Under the pieces are notes generated by a model that saw only the letters and a program-made list of their open reading frames with translations, made no database searches and was not told the origin of the DNA. Below, piece by piece: positions 4,647 to 20,242 of a DNA stretch of 37,291 bases. The DNA comes from Tissierellia bacterium (GTDB lineage Bacteria; Bacillota; Clostridia; Tissierellales; Tepidimicrobiaceae): NCBI GenBank assembly GCA_012728365.1, contig JAAYFE010000033.1:1-37291 (forward strand), in the 5' to 3' direction. The translations under genes and the position numbers were made by a program. The stretch's first letter is position 1; each line of letters opens with the position of its first letter.

Positions 4647-7600
4647 TTGCATCTTAAAAAGATATTCATACAGGGATTTAAATCCTTTGCTGATAAAACA
4701 GAAATAGAATTTAAAGACGGTATTACTGCCATAGTAGGACCCAATGGTTGTGGAAAGAGCAATGTTGCCGATGCAATCAGATGGGTTTTAGGTGAACAAA
4801 GTGTTAGAACCTTAAGGGGTAGTAAAATGGAAGATGTTATTTTTTCTGGTACAGACAAAAGAAGAGCCTTAGGTTATGCTGAAGTAACAATAGTGTTTGA
4901 TAATTCTGATGAAAAGGTGCCTGTTGAATTTCAGGAAGTAGCTATTACGAGGAGAATGTTTAGGTCTGGAGAAAGTGAATACTATATAAATAAGAATCCC
5001 TGCAGGTTAAAGGATGTTAGAGAGCTTTTAATGGATACTGGTATAGGAAAAGATGGTTACTCCGTAATTGGACAAGGCCGTATTGATGAAATTTTAAGTA
5101 CTAAGCCTGAAGATAGACGTCATATATTTGAAGAAGCGGCAGGCATAGTAAAATACAAATCAAAGAAGATGGAAGCTGAAAAAAAGTTAGAAAAAACTGA
5201 CAATAATCTAATTAGAATTGAGGATATAATAGGTGAGCTAGAAATTCAATACGAAAACCTAAAGGAACAATCAGAGAAAGCTCAAAAATATATGGAGCTT
5301 TCTAATAAAGTAAAAGAAATTGAAATCAATCTAATGCTAAGAAAAATTGAAGAATTACAGGGACAAATAAGTAAGTGCATGGAAGAAAAGGAAGTAGTAC
5401 AAAGACAAATAGACCAACTGGAAGCTCAAAGGGAAAAAGTAGAGGAAGAGTCAAATTTACTCAGGAAAGTTATGGACTCTAAAGGTCTGAACATTGAAAA
5501 GCTTCAAAAAGATAAGGAAAATATAATGTTTGAAATAAATAACAATAAAAATAGACTAACAATTTTAGAAGAGAAGAAGAAATATTATTTAAAGGATGTT
5601 GAAAGGCTTGCAAAGGAAATAGAAGAGCTTAAATTAAAATATAATAAGCTTAAGGAAGATAAAAAATTATTATCAAGTACAACTAGCCTAAGTAAAGAAG
5701 AGTTGGAAAATTTTAAAGAAGATTATAGATTAAAAAGTGAAAATCTTGAAAGGTTAAGTGAAAATATAAGGAAAAGAGAAAAGGAAATAAATTTAGAAAA
5801 GGACAGGGTAATTACCCTTTACAATACAATTGCTGATAAAAAAAGTAAATTAAATAGTATATCTAGCTTTAGGGACAATATAATTAAGAGGATAAGCCAA
5901 ATAGAAAAAGAAATAGCTACTCTTTGTGAAAAGAAAAAGCAGGAGCAGAAAACTATTAAAGAAATGGAAATAATTGAGAGCAATAAGAAAGAGGAAATAG
6001 TTGCTATTAATAAAGCTTTAGTCAATTTAAAGTTAGAAGAAGAAAAATATAAAGAAAAGCTGGACAACCTGTATAAATTAATAAATGAGAACAAAATAAC
6101 CTTACAGGGTAAAATTACAAACTATAATTTGTTAACCAATATGGAAGAAGATTATGAAGGATATTATAAAAGTGTTAAAAACTTAATGTTAGCCTATAAA
6201 AAAGACAAAACCCTTAAGGATAGGCTTATAGGAGTAGTTGCAGATCTGATAAAAGTAGATACAAAATATGAAAAAGCTGTTGAGGTTGCATTAGGTGGTA
6301 GTCTTCAAAATGTTGTAACTAAAGATGAAGATGATGCTAAATTCATTATAAGTTATCTACGGCAAAGAAAGCTTGGAAGGGTTACTTTTTTACCCCTTTC
6401 TACTATTAAAGCTAAAGCAATAAATATAAGCCATAAGGATAGGGAAGTCTACAGTATTATAGGGTTAGCTTCAGAGTTAGTTCAATATGATAGCATTTAT
6501 AAAGATATTATAGAATATCTACTAGGTAGAACCATTGTAGTAGAAAATATAGACTATGCTACTAAAGTTGCTAAAGGGTTTAATTATTCTTATAAAATAG
6601 TTACCTTAGAGGGAGATGTTGTAAATCCGGGTGGCTCCATAACTGGTGGTAGCATGCCCAAGGTGAATAATCTACTTAATAGGAAGCATAGGATTAATAA
6701 AATTAAAAGGGAAATAAATGAACTTACACAAGTACAATCTAATTTAGAAAAGGAAAAAGCCTTTGTAAAATCAAAAATTGATGAATATATGAACTGGATT
6801 AAAGAAAAAGAAAACATTTTACAAGGTATTAATATTGAAATAATAAAAATAGAAAATGAAATAAATAAACATTCTGATGAACTTAAAAGAAATGAAGAGA
6901 TGGTATTAAAATATAATGAGGAAATAAATAGGTTAAAGATAGAGCTTAGATCCATAGATGAAGAGGAAAAACATATTAACGAAGAAATAAGTACATTATC
7001 AGCTAAAAGAGAAGCCCTTGAAAAAGAAATAGTTAAGTCTATGGAAGTTTTTGAAGAAAGGAAAAAAACATTAGAAGAAGTAAAAAAGGAAGTTACAGAT
7101 GCCCAAATAAAAATCAATATACTGGAAAATAAAATGGCAAATACTGAAGAAAAAATAATAAATGCAGAATTAGAACTAAAGAATATAAATGACACTATTG
7201 AAAATAAGAAAAAAGAGAGGGAAATAAATTTAGTCAATATAGATAGGGTTTCAGCAGAAATACTGCAAGTAAATGAAGAAATAGAAAAGCTATTATCAAA
7301 AAATGAAGAAAAGAATAGTAAATTAACCTTATTAAAGGAAGAAAAGGATTCATTATTGAAGGACTATTACTTAATTCAAAATAAATTAAAAGATGTATTA
7401 GATAACATAAAGGTACTTGAAAATAAGAAAAACCATTATTCCATTAAGGAAGCAAAATACAGCACACAGTTAGATAATATATTTAACAAATTAGAGGAAG
7501 AATATAACTTAACCTATGATGAAGCAATAGAATACAAATTTGAAATAGAAAATTTAAAGGAAGCAGAAGATTTGGTTAAAAATCTAAAGGAAGAAATAAA

Positions 7601-8222
7601 GGATTTAGGTACTGTGTACTTAGACGCTATAGAAGAATTTAGACAGGTAAAGGAAAGATTGGAGTTTTTGAGGAAGCAACATGGGGACCTTTTAACTGCT
7701 AAAGAAGATCTCAATAAGGTTATATTTGATATGGAAGGCAAGATGAAAAAGCAATTTATTGAAAAGTTTAAAATAATAAATGAAAACTTTGATGTTATAT
7801 TTAAGAAGCTATTTGATGGTGGTACAGCCAGCATTGAATTAGTAGATGAAGAGGACATATTAAATTGTGGAATTGAAATAAAGGCCCAACCTCCAGGAAA
7901 GAAACTACAAAATCTTGACCTGCTTTCTGGTGGTGAAAGATCTTTAACAGCTGTAGCCCTTTTATTTGCAGTACAAAAAGTAAAACCATCACCATTCTGT
8001 GTATTAGATGAAATAGATGCAGCCTTAGATGAATCAAATATTAGCAAATATACAAGCTATTTAATGGAACTAGCAGAAAACACCCAATTTATAATCATAA
8101 CCCATAGAAAAAAAACTATGGAAATTGCAGATGCTCTATATGGTGTTACTATGGAGGAGGAGGGTATTAGCAAAATAGTTTCTGTAAAATTAACAGATAA
8201 GCTTGAAGATATTGCAAGTTAA
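4647..8222 (+). CDS. smc: chromosome segregation protein SMC
   Basis: SMC is the ATPase core of the SMC-ScpAB condensin, which organises and helps segregate the chromosome. The 1191-residue product has an N-terminal Walker A (GPNGCGKSN, residues 31-39), a long coiled coil, a central hinge of about 160 residues beginning near YEGYYKSVKNLMLAYK, a second coiled coil, and the C-terminal ABC signature LLSGGERSLTAVAL with Walker B FCVLDEIDAALDE. TTG at 4647 (MHLKKIFIQGFKSFADK) is preferred over GTG at 4638, because GAAGGGTGA is placed correctly for it and family members begin M-x-L-K-K. It is coupled to the upstream radical SAM gene and followed by ftsY after 14 nt. Confidence 0.97.
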   Translation: MHLKKIFIQGFKSFADKTEIEFKDGITAIVGPNGCGKSNVADAIRWVLGEQSVRTLRGSKMEDVIFSGTDKRRALGYAEVTIVFDNSDEKVPVEFQEVAITRRMFRSGESEYYINKNPCRLKDVRELLMDTGIGKDGYSVIGQGRIDEILSTKPEDRRHIFEEAAGIVKYKSKKMEAEKKLEKTDNNLIRIEDIIGELEIQYENLKEQSEKAQKYMELSNKVKEIEINLMLRKIEELQGQISKCMEEKEVVQRQIDQLEAQREKVEEESNLLRKVMDSKGLNIEKLQKDKENIMFEINNNKNRLTILEEKKKYYLKDVERLAKEIEELKLKYNKLKEDKKLLSSTTSLSKEELENFKEDYRLKSENLERLSENIRKREKEINLEKDRVITLYNTIADKKSKLNSISSFRDNIIKRISQIEKEIATLCEKKKQEQKTIKEMEIIESNKKEEIVAINKALVNLKLEEEKYKEKLDNLYKLINENKITLQGKITNYNLLTNMEEDYEGYYKSVKNLMLAYKKDKTLKDRLIGVVADLIKVDTKYEKAVEVALGGSLQNVVTKDEDDAKFIISYLRQRKLGRVTFLPLSTIKAKAINISHKDREVYSIIGLASELVQYDSIYKDIIEYLLGRTIVVENIDYATKVAKGFNYSYKIVTLEGDVVNPGGSITGGSMPKVNNLLNRKHRINKIKREINELTQVQSNLEKEKAFVKSKIDEYMNWIKEKENILQGINIEIIKIENEINKHSDELKRNEEMVLKYNEEINRLKIELRSIDEEEKHINEEISTLSAKREALEKEIVKSMEVFEERKKTLEEVKKEVTDAQIKINILENKMANTEEKIINAELELKNINDTIENKKKEREINLVNIDRVSAEILQVNEEIEKLLSKNEEKNSKLTLLKEEKDSLLKDYYLIQNKLKDVLDNIKVLENKKNHYSIKEAKYSTQLDNIFNKLEEEYNLTYDEAIEYKFEIENLKEAEDLVKNLKEEIKDLGTVYLDAIEEFRQVKERLEFLRKQHGDLLTAKEDLNKVIFDMEGKMKKQFIEKFKIINENFDVIFKKLFDGGTASIELVDEEDILNCGIEIKAQPPGKKLQNLDLLSGGERSLTAVALLFAVQKVKPSPFCVLDEIDAALDESNISKYTSYLMELAENTQFIIITHRKKTMEIADALYGVTMEEEGISKIVSVKLTDKLEDIAS

Positions 8223-8236
8223 GGAGGAATAGATAA

Positions 8237-9322
8237 ATGTTTAAGAATTTTTTTAGAAGGAAGAAGAAAGAAGAAAATGTAGTTGAAAAGGTTCAGGAAG
8301 TTGAAAAAGTTGAAAAGCTTGAAGAAGTAGAAGAAGATAAGGTTGAAGAAAAAGCATCTAAAGAAGTTATGGAAGTTGAGGAAGTTAAGGAAGAAAAGAA
8401 AGTTAAAAAAAGTTTCTTTCAAAGATTAAAGGAAGGGCTTGATAAGACTAGAAAGGGTATGACTGAAAGAATTGACAGCGTTTTAAAATCCTATGGAAAA
8501 ATAGACGAAGAATTGTTTGAAGAGCTAGAAGAAATATTGGTTACTGCTGATGTGGGCATTAATACTACCATGAATATAATTGATAGATTAAAAGAAAGGG
8601 TTAAAGAAGAAAAGGTAAATGAAGCAGAAAAAATTAGAGAACTTCTTAAAGAAGAAATTAAGGATATAATGAATGAAACTGGACTTAGCAATAAACTAAA
8701 TGTGGACAAATCACCAACGGTAGTTTTGGTAGTTGGAGTAAATGGGGCAGGAAAAACTACTACCATAGGAAAACTTTCTTATAACTTAAAACAATCAGGT
8801 AAAAAAGTCATAATGGCAGCTGGAGACACTTTTAGAGCTGCAGCAATTGAACAGCTTGAAGAATGGAGTCGCAGGGCAGGGGTAGACCTTATAAAGCATA
8901 GCGAAGGTGCAGATCCTGCAGCTGTTATATATGATGGAATTCAAGCAGCAAAATCTAGAAAAGCAGATGTGTTAATATGTGATACTGCAGGAAGACTTCA
9001 CAATAAAAAGAATTTAATGAATGAGTTAAATAAAATATTTCGTGTTATAGAAAGGGAATATCCTGAAGCTGAAAAAGAAGTATTATTGGTACTAGATGCA
9101 ACTACAGGACAAAATGCTATTTCCCAGGCAAAGGAGTTTAAGGAAGTATGTGATATAACTGGTGTAGCTTTGACAAAACTAGATGGGACAGCTAAAGGAG
9201 GAGTAGTTATAGCAGTGCAATCGGAACTAATGTTACCAATTAAGCTTATAGGAGTTGGGGAACAAATAGAGGACTTACAAGAATTCAATGTGGATGATTT
9301 TGTAGAAGCTATGTTTAGTTAG
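8237..9322 (+). CDS. ftsY: signal recognition particle receptor FtsY
   Basis: FtsY is the SRP receptor GTPase that docks ribosome-nascent-chain complexes at the Sec translocon. The ATG at 8237 follows AAGGAGGAA. The 361-residue protein begins with a short basic stretch (KNFFRRKKKEE), then a highly charged Glu/Val/Lys-rich segment of about 50 residues (the variable A region), then the N domain and the G domain. GTPase motifs are GVNGAGKTTTIGKL, DTFRAAAIEQL, DTAGRLHNKKNL and TKLDGTAKGG. The rnc-smc-ftsY order is conserved. In many relatives ylxM-ffh follow; here a terminator ends the operon instead. Confidence 0.97.
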   Translation: MFKNFFRRKKKEENVVEKVQEVEKVEKLEEVEEDKVEEKASKEVMEVEEVKEEKKVKKSFFQRLKEGLDKTRKGMTERIDSVLKSYGKIDEELFEELEEILVTADVGINTTMNIIDRLKERVKEEKVNEAEKIRELLKEEIKDIMNETGLSNKLNVDKSPTVVLVVGVNGAGKTTTIGKLSYNLKQSGKKVIMAAGDTFRAAAIEQLEEWSRRAGVDLIKHSEGADPAAVIYDGIQAAKSRKADVLICDTAGRLHNKKNLMNELNKIFRVIEREYPEAEKEVLLVLDATTGQNAISQAKEFKEVCDITGVALTKLDGTAKGGVVIAVQSELMLPIKLIGVGEQIEDLQEFNVDDFVEAMFS

Positions 9323-14167: not shown

Positions 14168-14701
14168 ATGAAGAGGTTTAGTAAATTGCCAAAGGATGTA
14201 AAAACAGTATTAATTGTTGCAGCTATAGTTATTTCAATAAGTGGATTAACAACCATATACGCCAATGTCAATGCCCATAGCAGATTGGAAACTTTAAAAA
14301 GAGATTCTCGTTTAAACTTTGTTTCTTTAGATGAATTCAAAACTTTCATGACAGAAAAAGAAGTAACTGCCCTGGAATATGATGTAGAAATGGATATCCT
14401 TACAGGTACTTTAAAAGAAGAAGCTAAAATAAAATATGGGATAACTGGTAGTGGTAGGGTAGCTTTAGGAAACATATCAAAATTTATAGAGGAAAACCGG
14501 ATTACCAATGAAGTTATATTAGAAACCATTAAAAATGCAGAAAAACTTTACTTTGCGAAACCTACGAAAACCTTTATATCTATGGTAGTAAGTGTTGTAA
14601 TATTGTCTGTATCCTATTTAATACTTATCAAACCTATGAGGAATAGTGTCATTACAAATCCGCCTACTTCTAGTGCTCCTAGGATGATTAGAAGAAACTA
14701 A
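14168..14701 (+). CDS. two-TM protein resembling the FtsH extracytoplasmic region
   Basis: A 177-residue protein without a name I can give surely. TM1 lies at about 14-33, an extracytoplasmic stretch at about 34-134, TM2 at about 136-155, then a short basic tail ending SAPRMIRRN. The middle part (VSLDEFKTFMTEKEVTALEY, then ILTGTLKEEAKIKYGI, then ISKFIEENRI) recalls the FtsH_ext fold: Y/S-x-F...V..V......TGTLKDG...LL...I. The arrangement TM-ext-TM is that of FtsH before its AAA domain, but no AAA, Walker or HExxH motif follows. It could be a FtsH-interacting or stress-sensing membrane protein; this is inference from motif likeness. GGGAGGATT precedes the ATG. Its promoter has activator-like repeats. 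Confidence 0.5.
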   Translation: MKRFSKLPKDVKTVLIVAAIVISISGLTTIYANVNAHSRLETLKRDSRLNFVSLDEFKTFMTEKEVTALEYDVEMDILTGTLKEEAKIKYGITGSGRVALGNISKFIEENRITNEVILETIKNAEKLYFAKPTKTFISMVVSVVILSVSYLILIKPMRNSVITNPPTSSAPRMIRRN

Positions 14702-14705
14702 GAAG

Positions 14706-14879
14706 GTCTTGAAGTTTATAAATGATAATTTATCAAAAGGTATCTTATTAAATTTAATGGATCAATACTATCCAAGCTATTAAGCCTTTAAATATGAAGA
14801 AATAAATAGGAGATTAAGATTTGGAGAGTATAAACAAGCTTATGTTTTTGCACAAGAACTAGGGGTAAAACTGGTATAA
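14706..14879 (+). pseudogene. 3' remnant of a PflA-like radical SAM gene
   Basis: The frame from 14706 reads VLKFINDNLSKGILLNLMDQ, then YYPSY, a TAA (14781-14783), then AFKYEEINRRLRFGEYKQA, and ends at TAA 14877-14879. This matches the C-terminal end of the PflA-homologue (PflX-like) radical SAM proteins, which have L-M-x-Q-Y-x-P-x-Y-K-A..Y-x-E-I-N-R-R followed by a helix of the form YxxAxxxAxELG. The N-terminal domain and its CxxxCxxC cluster site are missing, there is no start signal, and the remnant directly abuts the preceding gene. It is a decayed fragment; assignment rests on motif recognition by eye. Confidence 0.55.
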
Positions 14880-14970: not shown

Positions 14971-14998
14971 TTGACATAATTTGATAAGATGATATAAT
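14971..14998 (+). promoter_or_regulatory. sigma-A promoter for selC
   Basis: Consensus TTGACA (14971-14976), a 16-nt spacer and TATAAT (14993-14998) lie about 31 nt before the tRNA-Sec gene. The stretch between the radical SAM remnant and this promoter (14880-14970) shows nothing recognisable. Confidence 0.8.
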
Positions 14999-15029: not shown

Positions 15030-15126
15030 GGGAGTAGATGGGTGCTGGTGTGCCCTCTGGTCTTCAAAACCAGTACGAGGGGTTAGAAGCCTCTTGGGTG
15101 GGTTCGATTCCCACATACTCCCGCCA
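15030..15126 (+). tRNA. selC: tRNA-Sec (UCA anticodon), selC
   Basis: A 97-nt tRNA with encoded CCA (15124-15126). The acceptor strand GGGAGTA (15030-15036) pairs with TACTCCC. A long D stem (GGGTGC with GTGCCC, wobbles allowed) closes a 4-nt loop. The anticodon stem CTGGT/ACCAG encloses the loop CTTCAAA, giving anticodon TCA. A long variable arm (GAGG...CCTC) and a T arm GTGGG-TTCGATT-CCCAC follow. The long acceptor/T stack, extended D stem and UCA anticodon are diagnostic of selenocysteine tRNA. The eighth acceptor pair looks like G-A. SelA, SelB and SelD are not in the window, and no gene here shows an in-frame TGA. Confidence 0.96.
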
Positions 15127-15227: not shown

Positions 15228-15314
15228 ATGAAAGAGAATATAAAAATAATTCAAGACAATAAGTGCAAGGTAGCTGAGATATTAGAAATTACATGCTTGA
15301 CATCATTTAAATAA
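15228..15314 (+). pseudogene. possible remnant of a Fis-type HTH domain
   Basis: A short frame from ATG 15228 reads MKENIKIIQD, NKCKVAEILEIT and CLTSFK, then TAA. The core NKCKVAEILEIT resembles the Fis-type recognition helix region NKSKAAEILGIS found at the C terminus of sigma-54-dependent activators. No start signal or upstream domain remains, and the -35 box of the TRAP promoter lies inside its last codons. It may be the tail of a lost regulator of the neighbouring operon. Chance resemblance is possible over so few residues. Confidence 0.28.
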
Positions 15315-15324
15315 ATGTTATAAT
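15297..15324 (+). promoter_or_regulatory. sigma-A promoter for the TRAP-aroE-aroD operon
   Basis: TTGACA (15297-15302), a 16-nt spacer and TATAAT (15319-15324), both perfect hexamers, about 100 nt upstream of the first TRAP gene. Confidence 0.85.
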
Positions 15325-15370
15325 AAAGTAGTAGTCAATATCTGCATACCCTATTCCCCTAGGACATTAT

Positions 15371-15392
15371 AGCCACATAGGTGGCTTTTTTG
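15371..15392 (+). terminator. terminator-like hairpin in the TRAP operon leader (possible attenuator)
   Basis: AGCCAC (15371-15376), loop ATAG and GTGGCT (15381-15386) run into a T-tract with a second T-run shortly after. It lies after the promoter but before the first gene, so it would end transcription in the leader about 60 nt from the start. Upstream CCTAT (in TACCCTATTCC) could pair with ATAGG of the hairpin as an alternative fold. No known riboswitch class was recognised. Confidence 0.55.
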
Positions 15393-15425: not shown

Positions 15426-15905
15426 TTGAATCTGATAAAATGGCTAGATAAAAATTTAGAGAAAGCTATTCTTTCTATATTTTTGTTGCTAATGATAGTA
15501 GTTATGGGTGCACAAGTAGTAGCAAGATATGTATTTAATTCCTCCTTATCATGGTCTGAAGAATTAACAAGATATTTGTTTATATGGTCGGCATTTTTAA
15601 GCCTTCCATATACTATAAGATATGGCATTGCTCTTAAAATTGATCAGCATTTAAATATTTTTTCAAAGGGTGTAAGTAGAGCAATAAATATAATTGGCCA
15701 CATCTTAATGTTATTTTTCTTTCTATTTATGTTTTTTCAATCAGCTGATGTTGTAGGTATAAGTTTTAATAGTGGTCAAAAAAGCCCTGCCTTAGGTTTA
15801 CCAATGTATGTTGTGCAAATGTCTTCTTTTATAGGATTTGGTCTTGCTATAGTAAGAGTGGTACAATCATTATTTATGTATATTAGAGAAATTAATAAAA
15901 TTTAA
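15426..15905 (+). CDS. dctQ: TRAP transporter small membrane subunit (DctQ family)
   Basis: The small integral-membrane subunit of a tripartite ATP-independent periplasmic transporter. The 159-residue protein has four hydrophobic helices and the family signature SLSWSEELTRYLFIWSAFL between TM1 and TM2. Start is TTG at 15426, preceded by GGAGGTGG. It is the first gene of the operon and is followed after 19 nt by the large membrane subunit. Gene order Q-M-P differs from the common P-Q-M. The substrate is discussed under the binding protein. Confidence 0.93.
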   Translation: MNLIKWLDKNLEKAILSIFLLLMIVVMGAQVVARYVFNSSLSWSEELTRYLFIWSAFLSLPYTIRYGIALKIDQHLNIFSKGVSRAINIIGHILMLFFFLFMFFQSADVVGISFNSGQKSPALGLPMYVVQMSSFIGFGLAIVRVVQSLFMYIREINKI

Positions 15906-15924
15906 AAGGAAGGGAGGAAGTTTT

Positions 15925-17214
15925 TTGCCTTTAGTCTTATTTTTTTTAATATTTGTACTTTTATTAGCTATAGGATTACCAATTGGTGTTTCAATATCAA
16001 TGTCTTCTGTTCTGCCATGGATTTTAAATTCAAGATTTCCAGCAAATGCACCCCTTGTCATTAGGGCTATGATAAGTGGAGTTGATAGTTTTCCCTTATT
16101 AGCTGTACCTATGTTTGTTATATCAGGAGTTATTATGGCCCGTGGTAAGATTTCAGAAAAGCTATTTAATATGTTTGCTTTTTTCGTAGGTAAAAAGACG
16201 GCTGGATTGCCAGTAGCTGCCATTCTCACCTGTTTATTTTATGGTGCAATATCAGGTTCTGGTCCTGCCACAACGGCAGCAGTAGGCTCTATGACCATAC
16301 CAATATTGGTTAGCTTAAATTATGATAAAACCTTTGTAACATCTATGCTGGCTGTAGCTGGTGGCCTTGGGGTAATTATTCCACCCAGTATTCCTTTTAT
16401 TTTTTATGGAATGGCTTCGGGAGAATCTGTAGGTAGGCTATTCATAGCTGGAATATTACCAGGAATACTTATAGGATTTATACTATCAGTTTATGCAGTT
16501 ATTTATTGTAGAAATAAAGGGGAAGATAAGGAAAAGCTAATTGAATTTACAGATAATCTTAGAAATAAAGGTTTTTTCAATGTATTTAAGGATAGTTTTT
16601 GGGCCCTGTTATCTCCAGTAATAATCCTTGGAAGTATTTATGGTGGTCTTGCTACACCTACAGAAGCTGCTGTAATATCAGTATTTTACTCCTTATTTAT
16701 AAGCTTATTTGTATATAAGACCCTTAAGCTTAAAGATCTTCCATCCTTATTAATAGAAAGTATTAATTCCTATGCACCTATTTGTTTTATATTAGCAGCA
16801 GCCATGGGATTTTCACGGGTTTTAACCTATCTAAATGCACCACAAATTGCAGCTGATATTATTAGGTCAATAGCATCAAGCAAGATGAGTGTATTAATTA
16901 TAATAAATATATTGTTATTATTTGTGGGTATGTTTATGGATACAACTCCAGCAATACTAATATTAACCCCAATTTTATTACCTATAGTACGTAGTTTTGG
17001 AGTAGATCCAATACATTTTGGTATTATAATGGTAGTAAACTTAGCAGTAGGCTTTGTAACTCCTCCAGTTGGTGTTAATTTATTTGTAGCTAGTAGTTTA
17101 GCAAATATTCCAGTAATTGAAATAGCGAGAAAGGCTTTACCCTTCATAATAGGATTTTTACTTGCCTTAGTTCTTGTAACATATATACCACAAATAAGTT
17201 TAATATTAGTATAA
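15925..17214 (+). CDS. dctM: TRAP transporter large membrane subunit (DctM family)
   Basis: The 429-residue, roughly 12-TM subunit through which solute is moved using an ion gradient, usually Na+. Family features include LPIGVSISM in the first helix, FYGAISGSGPATTAAVGSMT, GGLGVIIPPSIPFIFYG, YGGLATPTEAAVISVFYSL and the C-terminal NLAVGFVTPPVGVNLFVAS. Start is TTG at 15925 after GGGAGG. The dctP gene follows after 25 nt. Length is normal for the stand-alone M subunit. Confidence 0.96.
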   Translation: MPLVLFFLIFVLLLAIGLPIGVSISMSSVLPWILNSRFPANAPLVIRAMISGVDSFPLLAVPMFVISGVIMARGKISEKLFNMFAFFVGKKTAGLPVAAILTCLFYGAISGSGPATTAAVGSMTIPILVSLNYDKTFVTSMLAVAGGLGVIIPPSIPFIFYGMASGESVGRLFIAGILPGILIGFILSVYAVIYCRNKGEDKEKLIEFTDNLRNKGFFNVFKDSFWALLSPVIILGSIYGGLATPTEAAVISVFYSLFISLFVYKTLKLKDLPSLLIESINSYAPICFILAAAMGFSRVLTYLNAPQIAADIIRSIASSKMSVLIIINILLLFVGMFMDTTPAILILTPILLPIVRSFGVDPIHFGIIMVVNLAVGFVTPPVGVNLFVASSLANIPVIEIARKALPFIIGFLLALVLVTYIPQISLILV

Positions 17215-17239
17215 TTCTAAATAAAGGGGTGAAAAAATT

Positions 17240-18247
17240 ATGAGAAAATTTATTACCTTTATTTTAATTTTCTGCATATCAAGTTTAGTATTAGCAGCTT
17301 GTAATAATGGAGATGCTGATAATTCAACCTATTCTTTTGAATTAGCCATGGATAGTCCAGAAGATACTGTCACATATTTGTTTGGTAAGAAATTTGCTGA
17401 ACTAGTTGAGGAAAAATCTAAGGGCAAAATTAAAATAACAGTATATTCAAGTGGGCAGCTTGGTGGAGATAGGGAAATCTGTGAAAGTGTTCAAAATGGT
17501 GATATAGCTTTTGTAGTTCAGAATACAGCACCGCAGGTGAATTTTGTTCCGGAGCTGGCAGTGTTTGATTTACCTAATTTATTTCCCAATACAGAGGTTG
17601 CAAGAAAGGTTTTAGATGGGCCCTTTTTTGATACAATAGCTGAAAAATATGAAGAAAGTAATATAAAGCTACTTGCATATGCAGATCAAGGCTTTAGGGT
17701 GATGACTACTAACAAAAAAATAGAAACAATTGAAGATTTTAAGGGGCAAAAAATTAGAACCATGGAAAATCCTTATCATTTAGCCTATTGGGAAGCTCTT
17801 GGTGCAAATCCAACTCCAATGGCTTTTGCAGAAGTTTACCTTGGATTACAACAGGGCACAATCGATGCACAAGAAAATCCATATGAAGTTATAGTTGCCA
17901 ATAGATTTTATGAACAACAAAAATATATTATAAATACGAACCACCTAATACATCTAATTTCATTAATAACAAACCTTCAACTTTTTAATGATTTACCAGA
18001 AGAAGACCAACAAATCATATTGGAGGCTGCTGAGGAAGCAAAAGTATGGGCTAGAGAACAGGCTGATTTAAGAGTAGAAAGTAGAATTAATACTATAATA
18101 GAAAATGGTGCTGAAATTATTGAACTTGATGATAAATTAAAGGGAGAGATGGCTGTTAGGGCAAATATAGTGTATACTAAGATTAGAAGTGAAATTGGAG
18201 ATGAATTGGTGGATTCTATATTAAAAGCTGTTTCAGATGTACTGTAA
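17240..18247 (+). CDS. dctP: TRAP transporter substrate-binding lipoprotein (DctP family)
   Basis: The extracytoplasmic solute receptor of the TRAP system. Residues 1-20 form a signal sequence ending in a lipobox (LVLAAC, Cys21), so it is membrane-anchored, as expected in a Gram-positive. The mature part has the DctP fold: SSGQLGGDREICESVQNGDI, GFRVMTTNKKIETIEDFKG and KIRTMENPYH. Arg173 in KIRTMENP corresponds to the Arg that binds the substrate carboxylate in most DctP proteins, so the ligand is probably an organic acid. Total length 335. Directly followed by aroE and aroD, which suggests a shikimate-, dehydroshikimate- or quinate-like ligand; this is inferred from context. Confidence 0.94.
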   Translation: MRKFITFILIFCISSLVLAACNNGDADNSTYSFELAMDSPEDTVTYLFGKKFAELVEEKSKGKIKITVYSSGQLGGDREICESVQNGDIAFVVQNTAPQVNFVPELAVFDLPNLFPNTEVARKVLDGPFFDTIAEKYEESNIKLLAYADQGFRVMTTNKKIETIEDFKGQKIRTMENPYHLAYWEALGANPTPMAFAEVYLGLQQGTIDAQENPYEVIVANRFYEQQKYIINTNHLIHLISLITNLQLFNDLPEEDQQIILEAAEEAKVWAREQADLRVESRINTIIENGAEIIELDDKLKGEMAVRANIVYTKIRSEIGDELVDSILKAVSDVL

Positions 18248-18266
18248 TAATAGAAAGGATGAGTTT

Positions 18267-19127
18267 ATGACTAATAGAATTCAGGGAACAACTAAGCTAA
18301 TGGGTCTAATTGGGTATCCCCTTAAACATAGTAAATCACCGCATATGCACAATACTGCCTTTGAAGCTTTAGGATTGGATTATGTATATTTGGCTTTTGA
18401 AATTAAGGATGGTTATCTAAAAGAGGCCTTAGATGCATTAAAGATCTTAAATGTAGAAGGTTTTAATGTTACAATGCCCCATAAAACAAAAATTATTGAG
18501 TACCTGGATGAAATAGCTCCTGATGCTAAAATTATTGGTGCAGTAAATACTGTAAAATATGAAGAAGGAAGGTTAATTGGTTACAATACAGATGGTAGAG
18601 GTTTTGTGAAGTCTTTGGAAGAAAAAGGTGTGGAATTTAAAGGGGAAAAAATTGTACTAGTAGGTGGAGGAGGAGCTGCAAGGGCTGTAGCAAGCCAATT
18701 AGCCTTTGAAGGGGCTGGAGAAATAGTACTATTTAATAGGACTCTGAGTAAGGCAGAGGAAATAGTTGGGAATATTAATAAAAACGTACCAGATTGTGAA
18801 AGTAGGGCTCTAGAATTAAATGAATCTCTCCTAATAGAAGAAATTCAGGATGCAAAGTTGTTAGTAGATTGTACTTCTTTAGGCATGAAGGATACTATTG
18901 ACCAATCAATAATTTCTTCTCCTGATTATTTGCCAAAGGATTTATTTGTTGCCGATATAGTATATGGCCCTTATAAAACTAAGCTATTAAAAATTGCAGA
19001 AGAAGCAGGTTGTAGGTATATGAATGGACTAATGATGATGATATGGCAAGGTGCAATAGCTTTTAAAATATGGACTGGTAAAGATATGCCAATAAAATTA
19101 ATAAAAGAAGAAATATTGGATAAGTAG
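18267..19127 (+). CDS. aroE: shikimate dehydrogenase
   Basis: Shikimate dehydrogenase reduces 3-dehydroshikimate to shikimate with NADPH. The ATG at 18267 follows AGAAAGGATGA; a frame-opening ATG at 18237 inside dctP is rejected. In the 286-residue product the substrate serines are S22 and S24 (HSKSPHMHN), the catalytic Lys is K73 (NVTMPHK), and Asp109 lies in NTDGRGF. A GGGGAARAVA nucleotide loop is followed by NRTLSKAEE, the NADP-type NRTxxKA motif, which favours AroE over NAD-linked quinate dehydrogenases. The C terminus has the usual QGA (IWQGAIAFKIWTG). It starts 19 nt after dctP and precedes aroD by 21 nt. Confidence 0.95.
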   Translation: MTNRIQGTTKLMGLIGYPLKHSKSPHMHNTAFEALGLDYVYLAFEIKDGYLKEALDALKILNVEGFNVTMPHKTKIIEYLDEIAPDAKIIGAVNTVKYEEGRLIGYNTDGRGFVKSLEEKGVEFKGEKIVLVGGGGAARAVASQLAFEGAGEIVLFNRTLSKAEEIVGNINKNVPDCESRALELNESLLIEEIQDAKLLVDCTSLGMKDTIDQSIISSPDYLPKDLFVADIVYGPYKTKLLKIAEEAGCRYMNGLMMMIWQGAIAFKIWTGKDMPIKLIKEEILDK

Positions 19128-19148
19128 GAAGATGTAAGGTGTGATATT

Positions 19149-19925
19149 ATGAGAGTGCAAAGTAGAAAAAAGGTGGTAGTAAAAGACATTTTATTTGGTG
19201 GAGATAGGATATTGACATGTATTCCCTTAGTGTCTAAGAATAAGAAAAAATTAATTGAAGAAGCTAAAGAGGTTTCTTTATTGCGTCCAGATGTAATTGA
19301 GTGGAGGGTGGACTTTTTTGAAAGTGTAAATGATGTAAAAAGCGTAATTGATACGTTACTAACCTTATCAGATATAATTGGTAAGATTCCTTTAATATTT
19401 ACATTAAGACATTGGAAAGAAGGAGGAAAATCTAACTTACACCAAGTAAAAAGAATAGAGATAATCAAGAAGTCTTTGGAGACTAATTGCATAGACTTAT
19501 TAGATATTGAAATAGATAATGATATGGGCTTTATAGATGAAATAAAGGGCATAATAGATAAAAAGGAGACTAAGTTAATATTTTCTTATCATAATTTTGA
19601 AGAAACACCTGGAGAGGAATTTCTATACAATAAGATCCTGGAAGGACAAAGACTTGGTGCAGATATAGTAAAAATAGCTGTTATGTCCCAAAATTATGGA
19701 GATGTATTAAGGTTATTAAATATTACATATTGGGCAAGAAATACTATTGATATTCCTTTAATTACAGTATCTATGGGAAAGCTTGGTGTAGTAACAAGGC
19801 TTATTGGTGGCTTATTTGGTTCAGATATGACCTATGCAGTTGGAAAAGAAGCATCTGCTCCTGGGCAAATAGCAATAGAGGATATCAATATAGTTTTAAA
19901 TATACTTAATAGAAGTGGCTTTTAG
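19149..19925 (+). CDS. aroD: type I 3-dehydroquinate dehydratase
   Basis: The class I enzyme converts 3-dehydroquinate to 3-dehydroshikimate through a Schiff base. The 258-residue protein shows the full active site: EWRVD (Glu51, Arg53), TLRHWKEGG, SYHNF with His148, KIA with the Schiff-base Lys175, SMGKLGVVTRLIG (Arg217), FGSDMTYA and SAPGQI (Gln240). It acts one step before AroE. Class I enzymes are used both in biosynthesis and in breakdown of quinate. AAGGTG precedes the ATG. It is the last gene of the apparent TRAP-aroE-aroD operon; no clear terminator follows. Confidence 0.95.
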   Translation: MRVQSRKKVVVKDILFGGDRILTCIPLVSKNKKKLIEEAKEVSLLRPDVIEWRVDFFESVNDVKSVIDTLLTLSDIIGKIPLIFTLRHWKEGGKSNLHQVKRIEIIKKSLETNCIDLLDIEIDNDMGFIDEIKGIIDKKETKLIFSYHNFEETPGEEFLYNKILEGQRLGADIVKIAVMSQNYGDVLRLLNITYWARNTIDIPLITVSMGKLGVVTRLIGGLFGSDMTYAVGKEASAPGQIAIEDINIVLNILNRSGF

Positions 19926-20017: not shown

Positions 20018-20218
20018 GTGGTTAAAAAGAGAGTTGATGAAAATGCTAAAAAGGCCTTGGAAGAACTAAAATTTGAGATTGCAACTGAATTAGGAATAAC
20101 AGATGCTGTTAGAAAGGTTAAGTCTAAGCCAATAAAGAATATTTATGCTACCGGTCGTGTTGCAGACATTATGAAAAGAAAAACTATGGAAAATGATGAT
20201 GATTTTACAATAGGATAG
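20018..20218 (+). CDS. alpha/beta-type small acid-soluble spore protein, atypical
   Basis: SASPs coat and protect spore DNA and are degraded at germination. The 66-residue protein contains ALEELKFEIATELGI, matching the conserved SASP block K-Y/F-E-I/F-A-x-E-L-G, including the peptide bond (E-I) cut by the germination protease whose gene is also in this window. The C-terminal part GRVADIMKRKTMEN aligns only loosely with the usual G-S-V-G-G-x-M-x-K-R-M, so DNA binding may differ. GTG at 20018 is chosen because ACGAGGTG lies 6 nt before it; a GTG at 20009 would overlap that site. It ends within its own terminator stem. Spore-specific transcription is expected but no clear sigma-G site was seen. 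Confidence 0.75.
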   Translation: MVKKRVDENAKKALEELKFEIATELGITDAVRKVKSKPIKNIYATGRVADIMKRKTMENDDDFTIG

Positions 20219-20242
20219 TGTTGACTATCCTATTTGTTTTTT
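20212..20242 (+). terminator. intrinsic terminator after SASP gene
   Basis: AGGATAGT (20212-20219), loop GTTG and ACTATCCT (20224-20231), then ATTTGTTTTTT. The stop codon TAG lies inside the stem. Confidence 0.9.

Follow-up and report, generated by a model that had tools for sequence, protein, structure and literature searches.

The window, which is the whole stretch of 37,291 nucleotides from a Tissierellia bacterium that was analysed, contains an intact operon of five genes, dctQ-dctM-dctP-aroE-aroD, all on the + strand (Table 1); family searches confirm the identities and positions proposed for them in the sequence-only reading. The intergenic gaps are 19, 25, 19 and 21 bp from 5' to 3', and no terminator-like site was seen on the + strand within the operon. 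DctQ, DctM and DctP match the families of DctPQM (DctP-type TRAP) transporters, all within one operon. For aroE, a start at 18237 was corrected to the ATG at 18267, which matches the start of its homologues. All five genes are under purifying selection despite the deletion of the neighbouring region (dN/dS of 0.12 for dctP, 0.12 for dctM, 0.21 for dctQ, 0.08 for aroE and 0.19 for aroD).

Table 1. Features of the operon and its surroundings in the window, with the other pathway genes of the host genome (contigs C96 and C165)
Feature	Position	Strand	Evidence
Sigma-70-type promoter-like site upstream of dctQ, TTGACA-16-TATAAT (12/12)	15297..15324	+	consensus match only
Terminator-like hairpin AGCCACATAGGTGGCT-TTTTT between promoter-like site and dctQ	15371..15386	+	
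dctQ, small TRAP membrane subunit, 159 aa, TTG start	15426..15905	+	PF04290 E 5.5e-32
dctM, large TRAP membrane subunit, 429 aa, TTG start	15925..17214	+	PF06808 E 9.4e-108; TIGR00786 above cut-off
dctP, solute-binding lipoprotein, 335 aa	17240..18247	+	PF03480 E 1.3e-86; TIGR00787 above cut-off
aroE, shikimate (or quinate/shikimate) dehydrogenase, 286 aa	18267..19127	+	PF08501 E 1e-31; TIGR00507 above cut-off
aroD, type I 3-dehydroquinate dehydratase, 258 aa	19149..19925	+	PF01487 E 2.5e-64; TIGR01093 above cut-off
Terminator-like hairpin 3' of operon	20209..20234	+	consensus match only
aroK	C96:8560-9042		
aroA, aroC	C165:5839-7128, 7160-8287		

That a single promoter serves the whole dctQ-aroD operon, as first proposed, is plausible: a promoter-like site with all 12 consensus positions lies upstream. 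The promoter is nevertheless uncertain because a hairpin stands before dctQ. Over about 15286-15331, the window shares 83% identity with the promoter region of tRNA-Sec in a congener, where a similar hairpin lies directly 3' of tRNA-Sec, and the hairpin of the window is likely a relic of a tRNA-Sec terminator. Given this resemblance and the fold z-score of the dctQ leader (-0.69, no better than shuffled sequences), a role as attenuator was set aside; a riboswitch or T-box was rejected on the same folding result and because only tRNA-Sec was matched in Rfam.

The proteins of the operon

The carboxylate-binding arginine ascribed to DctP is indeed kept: R153 and R173 are invariant in all 66 DctPs compared. 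R173 lines up with the conserved arginine of SiaP, R147. Cys21 is invariant within the clade of this DctP, whose specific residues include S39, V44, T45, F91, H238 and R278. Among the matches listed, identity to solved DctPs is about 24-34%, and the solved relatives include binders of sialic acid and of sugar acids. The predicted model (pLDDT 84) matches the fold of TRAP binding proteins (E 1e-27) but does not discriminate a ligand, since it fits many such proteins with diverse ligands equally well.

The nearest solved structures to AroE are 3tnl, 1nvt and YdiB, and the protein is closer to YdiB (E 3e-68) than to the E. coli-type AroE 1nyt (E 4e-28). It could also oxidise quinate, as YdiB does, although closeness to YdiB is not decisive. 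The motifs MPHK and YNTDG are present and aligned with 3tnl and 1nvt, and presumably hold the catalytic Lys and Asp; likewise, the AroD motifs VKIAVM and SYHNF align with the solved enzyme 3js3 and would contain the active-site Lys and His of type I enzymes.

The shikimate pathway of the host genome

The host genome (G000, a draft of 226 contigs, 94.5% complete) was searched for the other steps of the pathway and for further copies of aroD and aroE, as the sequence-only reading had suggested. It carries aroK, aroA and aroC; it has no match to type I DAHP synthase (aroF; PF00793), nor to dehydroquinate synthase (aroB) of either kind (PF01761; archaeal-type PF01959). The shikimate pathway is therefore incomplete in G000. 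A class II DAHP synthase alone, without aroB, would not yield dehydroquinate. The aroE and aroD of the operon are single copies: no other aroE was found in the genome, type II dehydroquinase (PF01220) has no match and AroD is the sole dehydroquinase of either type that was found. Extra aroD or aroE copies that might have been the biosynthetic ones were thus not found in G000. Queries for CM-PDT and TyrA taken from G106, which are too distant for a negative result to be telling, had no match in G000, in its congener G001 or in G006.

The loci around the missing genes are preserved. In G006 and G003, the order is aroC-aroB-aroA and DivIVA-aroF-DksA-like; in G000 and G001, aroC and aroA adjoin (31 and 38 bp apart) with aroB gone, and DivIVA and the DksA-like gene adjoin (233 and 281 bp apart) with aroF gone. 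G000 and G001 are two separate assemblies and each preserved locus lies on one contig. The preservation of both loci argues against missing assembly sequence, and we infer loss of aroB and aroF rather than regain. Without these two genes, G000 is apparently unable to make 3-dehydroquinate.

This pattern recurs among carriers of the TRAP genes: aroB and aroF are jointly absent in at least three other lineages, represented by G196, G104 and G181 with G178, all four genomes keeping aroA, aroC and aroK. Congeners that keep both aroB and aroF are G211 and G050 (of G196), G106 (of G104) and G173 (of G181 and G178). The lower-pathway operon of G181 and G178 is without aroE, and in both genomes an aroE adjoins the TRAP genes. 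The transporter is also found in genomes with aroB and aroF, namely G006, G062, G211, G173 and G106.

Transporter, aro genes and catabolic clusters in relatives

The linkage of the TRAP and aro genes is more than chance. Within 10 kb of dctP, a gene for aroE, aroD or a ThDP enzyme, the last a member of a linked catabolic cluster, was present at 40 of 50 loci whose DctP is at least 48% identical, and at none of 28 loci below that identity. Linked loci also cluster in the DctP tree (11 changes for three states against a shuffled mean of 36). The refuting condition set in the sequence-only reading, TRAP and aro genes that are never next to each other in relatives, therefore did not hold: this DctP clade has aroE for a neighbour, in many cases with aroD as well, in Tissierellia, Lachnospiraceae, Oscillospiraceae, Erysipelotrichaceae and rumen MAGs, with some 30 loci having aroE (often with aroD) and no catabolic genes.

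The catabolic cluster comprises genes for an HMG-CoA-lyase-like protein, an acylating aldehyde dehydrogenase, a ThDP enzyme and a TIM barrel. In G001, aroD and aroE flank the complete cluster, and several other genomes have aroE inside the cluster itself. In G006, the orthologous TRAP genes follow HMGL-ALDH-ThDP while aroD and aroE are on another contig; the transporter is thus not bound to supply biosynthesis in every genome. G000 has neither the ThDP nor the TIM gene. G171 has both transporter and cluster, and aroA, aroC and aroK were not found in it. The larger cluster that holds the transporter in the congener perhaps represents an undescribed route of quinate degradation. By chemical reasoning from the gene set, the IolI/QuiC-like barrel would dehydrate 3-dehydroquinate to a 3,4-dione, the ThDP enzyme would cleave the dione, the acylating aldehyde dehydrogenase would form homocitryl-CoA and the HMG-CoA-lyase-like enzyme would split it into acetyl-CoA and 2-oxoglutarate. 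It is a speculative and rather unlikely proposal that the TRAP clade serves two undescribed hydroaromatic routes, an obligately import-dependent half of the shikimate pathway in G000 and a non-aromatising, inositol-like quinate degradation in relatives. Cyclohexane-1,2-dione hydrolase was considered as the identity of the ThDP enzyme (E 3e-53) and dropped, as acetolactate synthases score better.

Probable import of a hydroaromatic acid into a truncated pathway

In our view, the operon probably codes for a TRAP system that takes up a hydroaromatic carboxylic acid, along with two enzymes that lead into the shikimate pathway below its missing steps. The earlier proposal that the cell takes up quinate, dehydroquinate, shikimate or dehydroshikimate is supported and survived the adjacency test, the ligand itself being predicted: quinate would be the most likely, with shikimate, dehydroquinate and dehydroshikimate as possible substrates. 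DctP would bind the acid outside the membrane and DctQM would import it, uptake by TRAP systems being driven by an ion gradient. AroD and AroE would bring the acid to shikimate, from which AroK, AroA and AroC would lead to chorismate. With quinate as the acid, oxidation by the AroE/YdiB-like enzyme could give dehydroquinate, which would be dehydrated by AroD; the resulting dehydroshikimate would then be reduced to shikimate by AroE. This conversion would be redox-neutral overall, which would explain why aroE and aroD travel with the transporter. Like the ligand, the way the flux runs, the redox reaction with quinate and the reliance on import are what we infer.

The proximity to catabolic genes could mean that what the transporter takes up is the substrate of the cluster found in relatives, a compound unrelated to the shikimate pathway, and that aroE and aroD are neighbours by locus history only. 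The arrangements in G006 and G001 would fit, yet the 30 or so aro-linked loci free of catabolic genes, the presence of aroE within the cluster itself elsewhere and the recurrent joint absence of aroB and aroF in TRAP carriers make this unlikely, and in G000, where the ThDP and TIM genes are lacking, purifying selection still maintains the TRAP genes. It is quite unlikely that the chief role of the acid is that of carbon source or electron acceptor (for example, with dehydroshikimate being reduced to shikimate, or quinate being fermented) rather than to supply chorismate: relatives such as G171 do keep the transporter with a catabolic cluster, and it occurs in genomes with aroB and aroF, but G000 lacks the ThDP and TIM genes, has every pathway step after dehydroquinate and carries these aroD and aroE as its sole copies. 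Where the sequence-only reading left biosynthesis and fermentation side by side, the gene set of G000 favours biosynthesis, because it includes aroA, aroC and aroK and one copy each of aroD and aroE, but neither aroB nor type I DAHP synthase. That ordinary biosynthetic aro genes stand by chance behind an unrelated sugar-acid transporter, with aroB and aroF merely missing from the assembly, is highly improbable; the assembly is a draft and the solved DctP relatives do include sialic and sugar acid binders, but the linkage at 40 of 50 loci and the gap-free surroundings of the aroB and aroF sites in two separate assemblies speak against it.

The preferred reading, import into a truncated pathway, makes the operon a specific and widespread candidate transporter for incomplete shikimate pathways, in a gene pattern (aroB and aroF absent, the rest kept) that recurs in several lineages. 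On this reading, some anaerobes of the gut, the rumen and digesters may depend on plant- or neighbour-derived quinate or shikimate for their aromatics. Such a dependence would matter for cross-feeding, for anaerobes that are difficult to culture and for automated predictions of prototrophy or auxotrophy for aromatic amino acids. Our literature search did not find a TRAP system for quinate or shikimate. A quinate-to-chorismate pathway has been proposed for a rumen bacterial population (PMC10054779), with the same idea of plant quinate as a chorismate precursor; the portion of that report available assigns no quinate transporter, whereas here a transporter is linked and aroB and aroF are absent from preserved loci. 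A 2010 survey described incomplete shikimate pathways in host-associated bacteria and left open the uptake of intermediates and the transporters (PMC3018139); compared with those cases, exactly the first two steps are missing here, repeatedly across several lineages, and a candidate transporter accompanies their absence. The E. coli shikimate permease ShiA, named in that survey, is similar in taking up a shikimate-pathway intermediate with possible entry to aromatic biosynthesis, but it is a single-gene permease, unlike the three-part transporter with binding protein and operon-encoded enzymes described here.

The same two enzyme families adjoin each other and a transporter gene in ydiN-ydiB-aroD of E. 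coli K-12, an analogous set that speaks for the preferred reading; there the transporter is MFS and not TRAP, whereas the enzymes of the window are the only copies of their genome, in a pathway without its first two steps. SiaPQM (sialic acid) and DctPAm (sugar acids) share the subunit make-up, the fold and the conserved Arg with the TRAP system of the window, whose DctP falls in a separate clade linked to aroE and aroD.

An operon beside a pathway lacking aroB and aroF

The close spacing of dctQ, dctM, dctP, aroE and aroD noted in the sequence-only reading holds: gaps are 19-25 bp, and a scan of the + strand found no terminator-like site within the operon. The carboxylate-binding arginine attributed to DctP is also there, both conserved arginines (R153 and R173) being present, together with an invariant, lipoprotein-type Cys21. 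AroD retains type I active-site motifs. AroE is closest to 3tnl, then to M. jannaschii-type 1nvt and the YdiB group, and E. coli-type AroE (1nyt) is far more distant. None of the five reading frames is interrupted, and purifying selection acts on all of them, with dN/dS of 0.12 for dctP and dctM, 0.21 for dctQ, 0.08 for aroE and 0.19 for aroD.

The window genome, G000 (a 2.24 Mb draft in 226 contigs, 94.5% complete, the window being one entire contig), belongs to the order of Schnuerera, Sedimentibacter and Dethiosulfatibacter. Whether aroB, aroA and aroC complete the pathway alongside other aroD or aroE copies had been left as a check. Genome searches returned a single type I dehydroquinase and a single shikimate dehydrogenase, no type II dehydroquinase, chorismate synthase and EPSP synthase (contig C165) and shikimate kinase (C96). 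Dehydroquinate synthase (no PF01761 or PF01959 match) and type I DAHP synthase (no PF00793 match) were absent. The congener G001 (96% complete) likewise keeps aroD, aroE, aroK, aroC and aroA, and neither aroB nor aroF was found in it. These absences are not assembly gaps, because both surrounding loci are preserved gap-free on single contigs. Where the relatives G006 and G003 read aroC-aroB-aroA, aroC and aroA lie 31 bp (G000) and 38 bp (G001) apart with the same flanking genes on both sides; DivIVA and the DksA-like gene, which enclose aroF in G006 and G003, are separated by 233 and 281 bp, respectively.

Features of the window and of relatives' loci
Feature	Position	Strand	Remarks
two broken genes, fused	14168-14873		in-frame stop
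tRNA-Sec promoter	14971-14998		12/12 consensus match
tRNA-Sec	15030-15122		Rfam, 75 bits
dctQ	15426-15905	+	Pfam, NCBIfam
dctM	15925-17214	+	Pfam, NCBIfam
dctP	17240-18247	+	Pfam, NCBIfam
aroE	18267-19127	+	Pfam, NCBIfam; start 18267, not 18237
aroD	19149-19925	+	Pfam, NCBIfam
short ORF	20018-20218		spore-protein-like, by eye only
terminator-like site	20209-20234		after the short ORF
candidate catabolic cluster	L048:738-6499, L032:4401-6807, L033, L086, L087, L090, L091, L093-L095, L101, L102, L105, L140		relatives
macro-domain-like gene	L200:5024-6230, L201:10590-11803, L050 (4049-4582)		family by eye
AroE-AroK fusion	L202:6306-7544		G104; apparent, by eye
chorismate-mutase-like/AroK fusion	L200:8497-9285		G181; apparent, by eye

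Recurrence in relatives

In a set of 15 genomes, made up of G003 and 14 in which the searches had turned up a DctP homologue, the absence of aroB and that of type I DAHP synthase coincide exactly: both are missing from G000, G001, G245, G196, G181, G104, G171 and G178 and present in the remaining seven. Three of these have congeners in which the transporter accompanies both genes: G196 (G211, and G050, whose DctP is more distant), G104 (G106) and the G181/G178 pair (G173). Counting the window genus, aroB and aroF would have been lost together four or more times independently, as judged from kinship groups rather than a species tree. Of the eight genomes without aroB and aroF, all but one (G171) keep aroA, aroC and aroK. 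The G196 operon, (PDT-like)-tyrA-aroA-aroC-CM-aroE-aroK, is that of G211 minus DAHP synthase and aroB, and the G181 and G178 operon, aroD-aroA-aroC-(chorismate mutase-like/aroK), is without aroE, an aroE adjoining the TRAP genes. Apparent gene fusions occur in the operons of G104 and G181 that are without aroB and aroF. A macro-domain-like gene lies immediately 5' of aroD in truncated pathway operons (L200, L201) and, in L050, a few genes from aroD/aroE.

The sequence-only reading turned on TRAP and aro genes being neighbours in relatives, and they are. A DctP-alignment scan, with one genome per species, gave 78 loci. At DctP identity of at least 48% (50 loci), aroE homologues occur in 36, aroD homologues in 15 and a ThDP enzyme in 8, with at least one of these in 40/50, many contigs being short, vs 0/28 loci below 48%. 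On the DctP tree the neighbourhood states are strongly clustered (11 changes among three states vs a shuffled mean of 36).

Two layouts are seen. Layout A, aroE-(MFS)-(aroD)-dctQ-dctM-dctP with a divergent LysR-type gene in several cases, occurs in Lachnospiraceae, Oscillospiraceae, Erysipelotrichaceae and MAGs labelled Bacteroidaceae; it resembles E. coli ydiN-ydiB-aroD but adds a TRAP system. Layout B (Tissierellia and others) joins dctQMP to a ThDP enzyme, an acylating aldehyde dehydrogenase (ALDH), an HMG-CoA-lyase-like enzyme (HMGL) and a TIM barrel, often also with aroE, IclR and Gfo/Idh. Same-clade aroE-dctQ-dctM-dctP copies in Bacteroidaceae/Bacteroidales-labelled MAGs, mostly from rumen or omasum (L108, L110, L114, L116, L119, L121, L122, L129), may reflect either lateral transfer or mis-binning.

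Import and the likely ligand

In this family DctP captures the substrate and DctQM imports it, and the same would apply here to an acid. The retention of AroD makes it likely that the imported acid joins the pathway at dehydroquinate or before it: it would be quinate if AroE oxidises quinate, or else dehydroquinate itself. Shikimate or dehydroshikimate would require AroE alone or less; with quinate the AroE/AroD pair would be redox-neutral. The earlier interpretation, hydroaromatic-acid uptake feeding aromatic biosynthesis or fermentation, is supported and, for G000, sharpened in favour of biosynthesis, the choice of ligand being our inference. An earlier survey names ShiA as a shikimate permease already known and leaves open whether bacteria with a deficient pathway take up its intermediates (PMC3018139); in a rumen study, quinate is proposed as a chorismate precursor (PMC10054779). 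Literature searches linking TRAP systems to quinate or shikimate gave no relevant result.

A possible catabolic cluster and the history of the locus

The layout B enzymes are conserved around the same TRAP genes and are a candidate for an undescribed degradation pathway. The solved folds closest to the IolI-like TIM barrel (model pLDDT 93.6) are those of IolI, of a putative sugar isomerase from Listeria and of 5hmq, a dehydroshikimate dehydratase in which a TIM barrel is fused to HPPD. The ThDP enzyme belongs to the acetolactate synthase/cyclohexane-1,2-dione hydrolase superfamily, ALDH is closest to acylating sulfoacetaldehyde dehydrogenase, under that family's cut-off, and HMGL scores above its subfamily cut-off. 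On chemical reasoning alone, by analogy with the breakdown of inositol, dehydration of 3-dehydroquinate could yield a dione; ring opening, conversion to homocitryl-CoA and splitting into acetyl-CoA and 2-oxoglutarate would follow.

The locus has the same neighbours in G000 and G001: a P-type ATPase, an ORF and tRNA-Sec at one end, and genes resembling Usp and PRK06851 at the other. Inside these flanks G001 carries, over two contigs, aroD-IclR-TIM-HMGL-ALDH-ThDP-dctQ and dctM-dctP-Gfo/Idh-MFS-aroE, and G000 only dctQMP-aroE-aroD, a difference that may reflect either loss of the catabolic genes from G000 or their acquisition by G001. No traces of the additional cluster genes were seen in the window; elsewhere in G000, ThDP and TIM were not found and ALDH has one paralogue only (55%). 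Retention of only the transporter and AroE/AroD is what import-fed chorismate synthesis predicts.

Upstream of the operon, a 673-aa ORF has been cut back by a deletion to its first 169 residues, which run into the last ~60 of a radical-SAM-like gene; both genes are intact in G001. A terminator-like hairpin lies ~240 bp beyond tRNA-Sec, before dctQ and behind a second promoter-like copy, and is similar to the congener's hairpin, which directly follows tRNA-Sec. Beyond aroD, a short ORF resembles a small acid-soluble spore protein and is followed by a terminator-like site.
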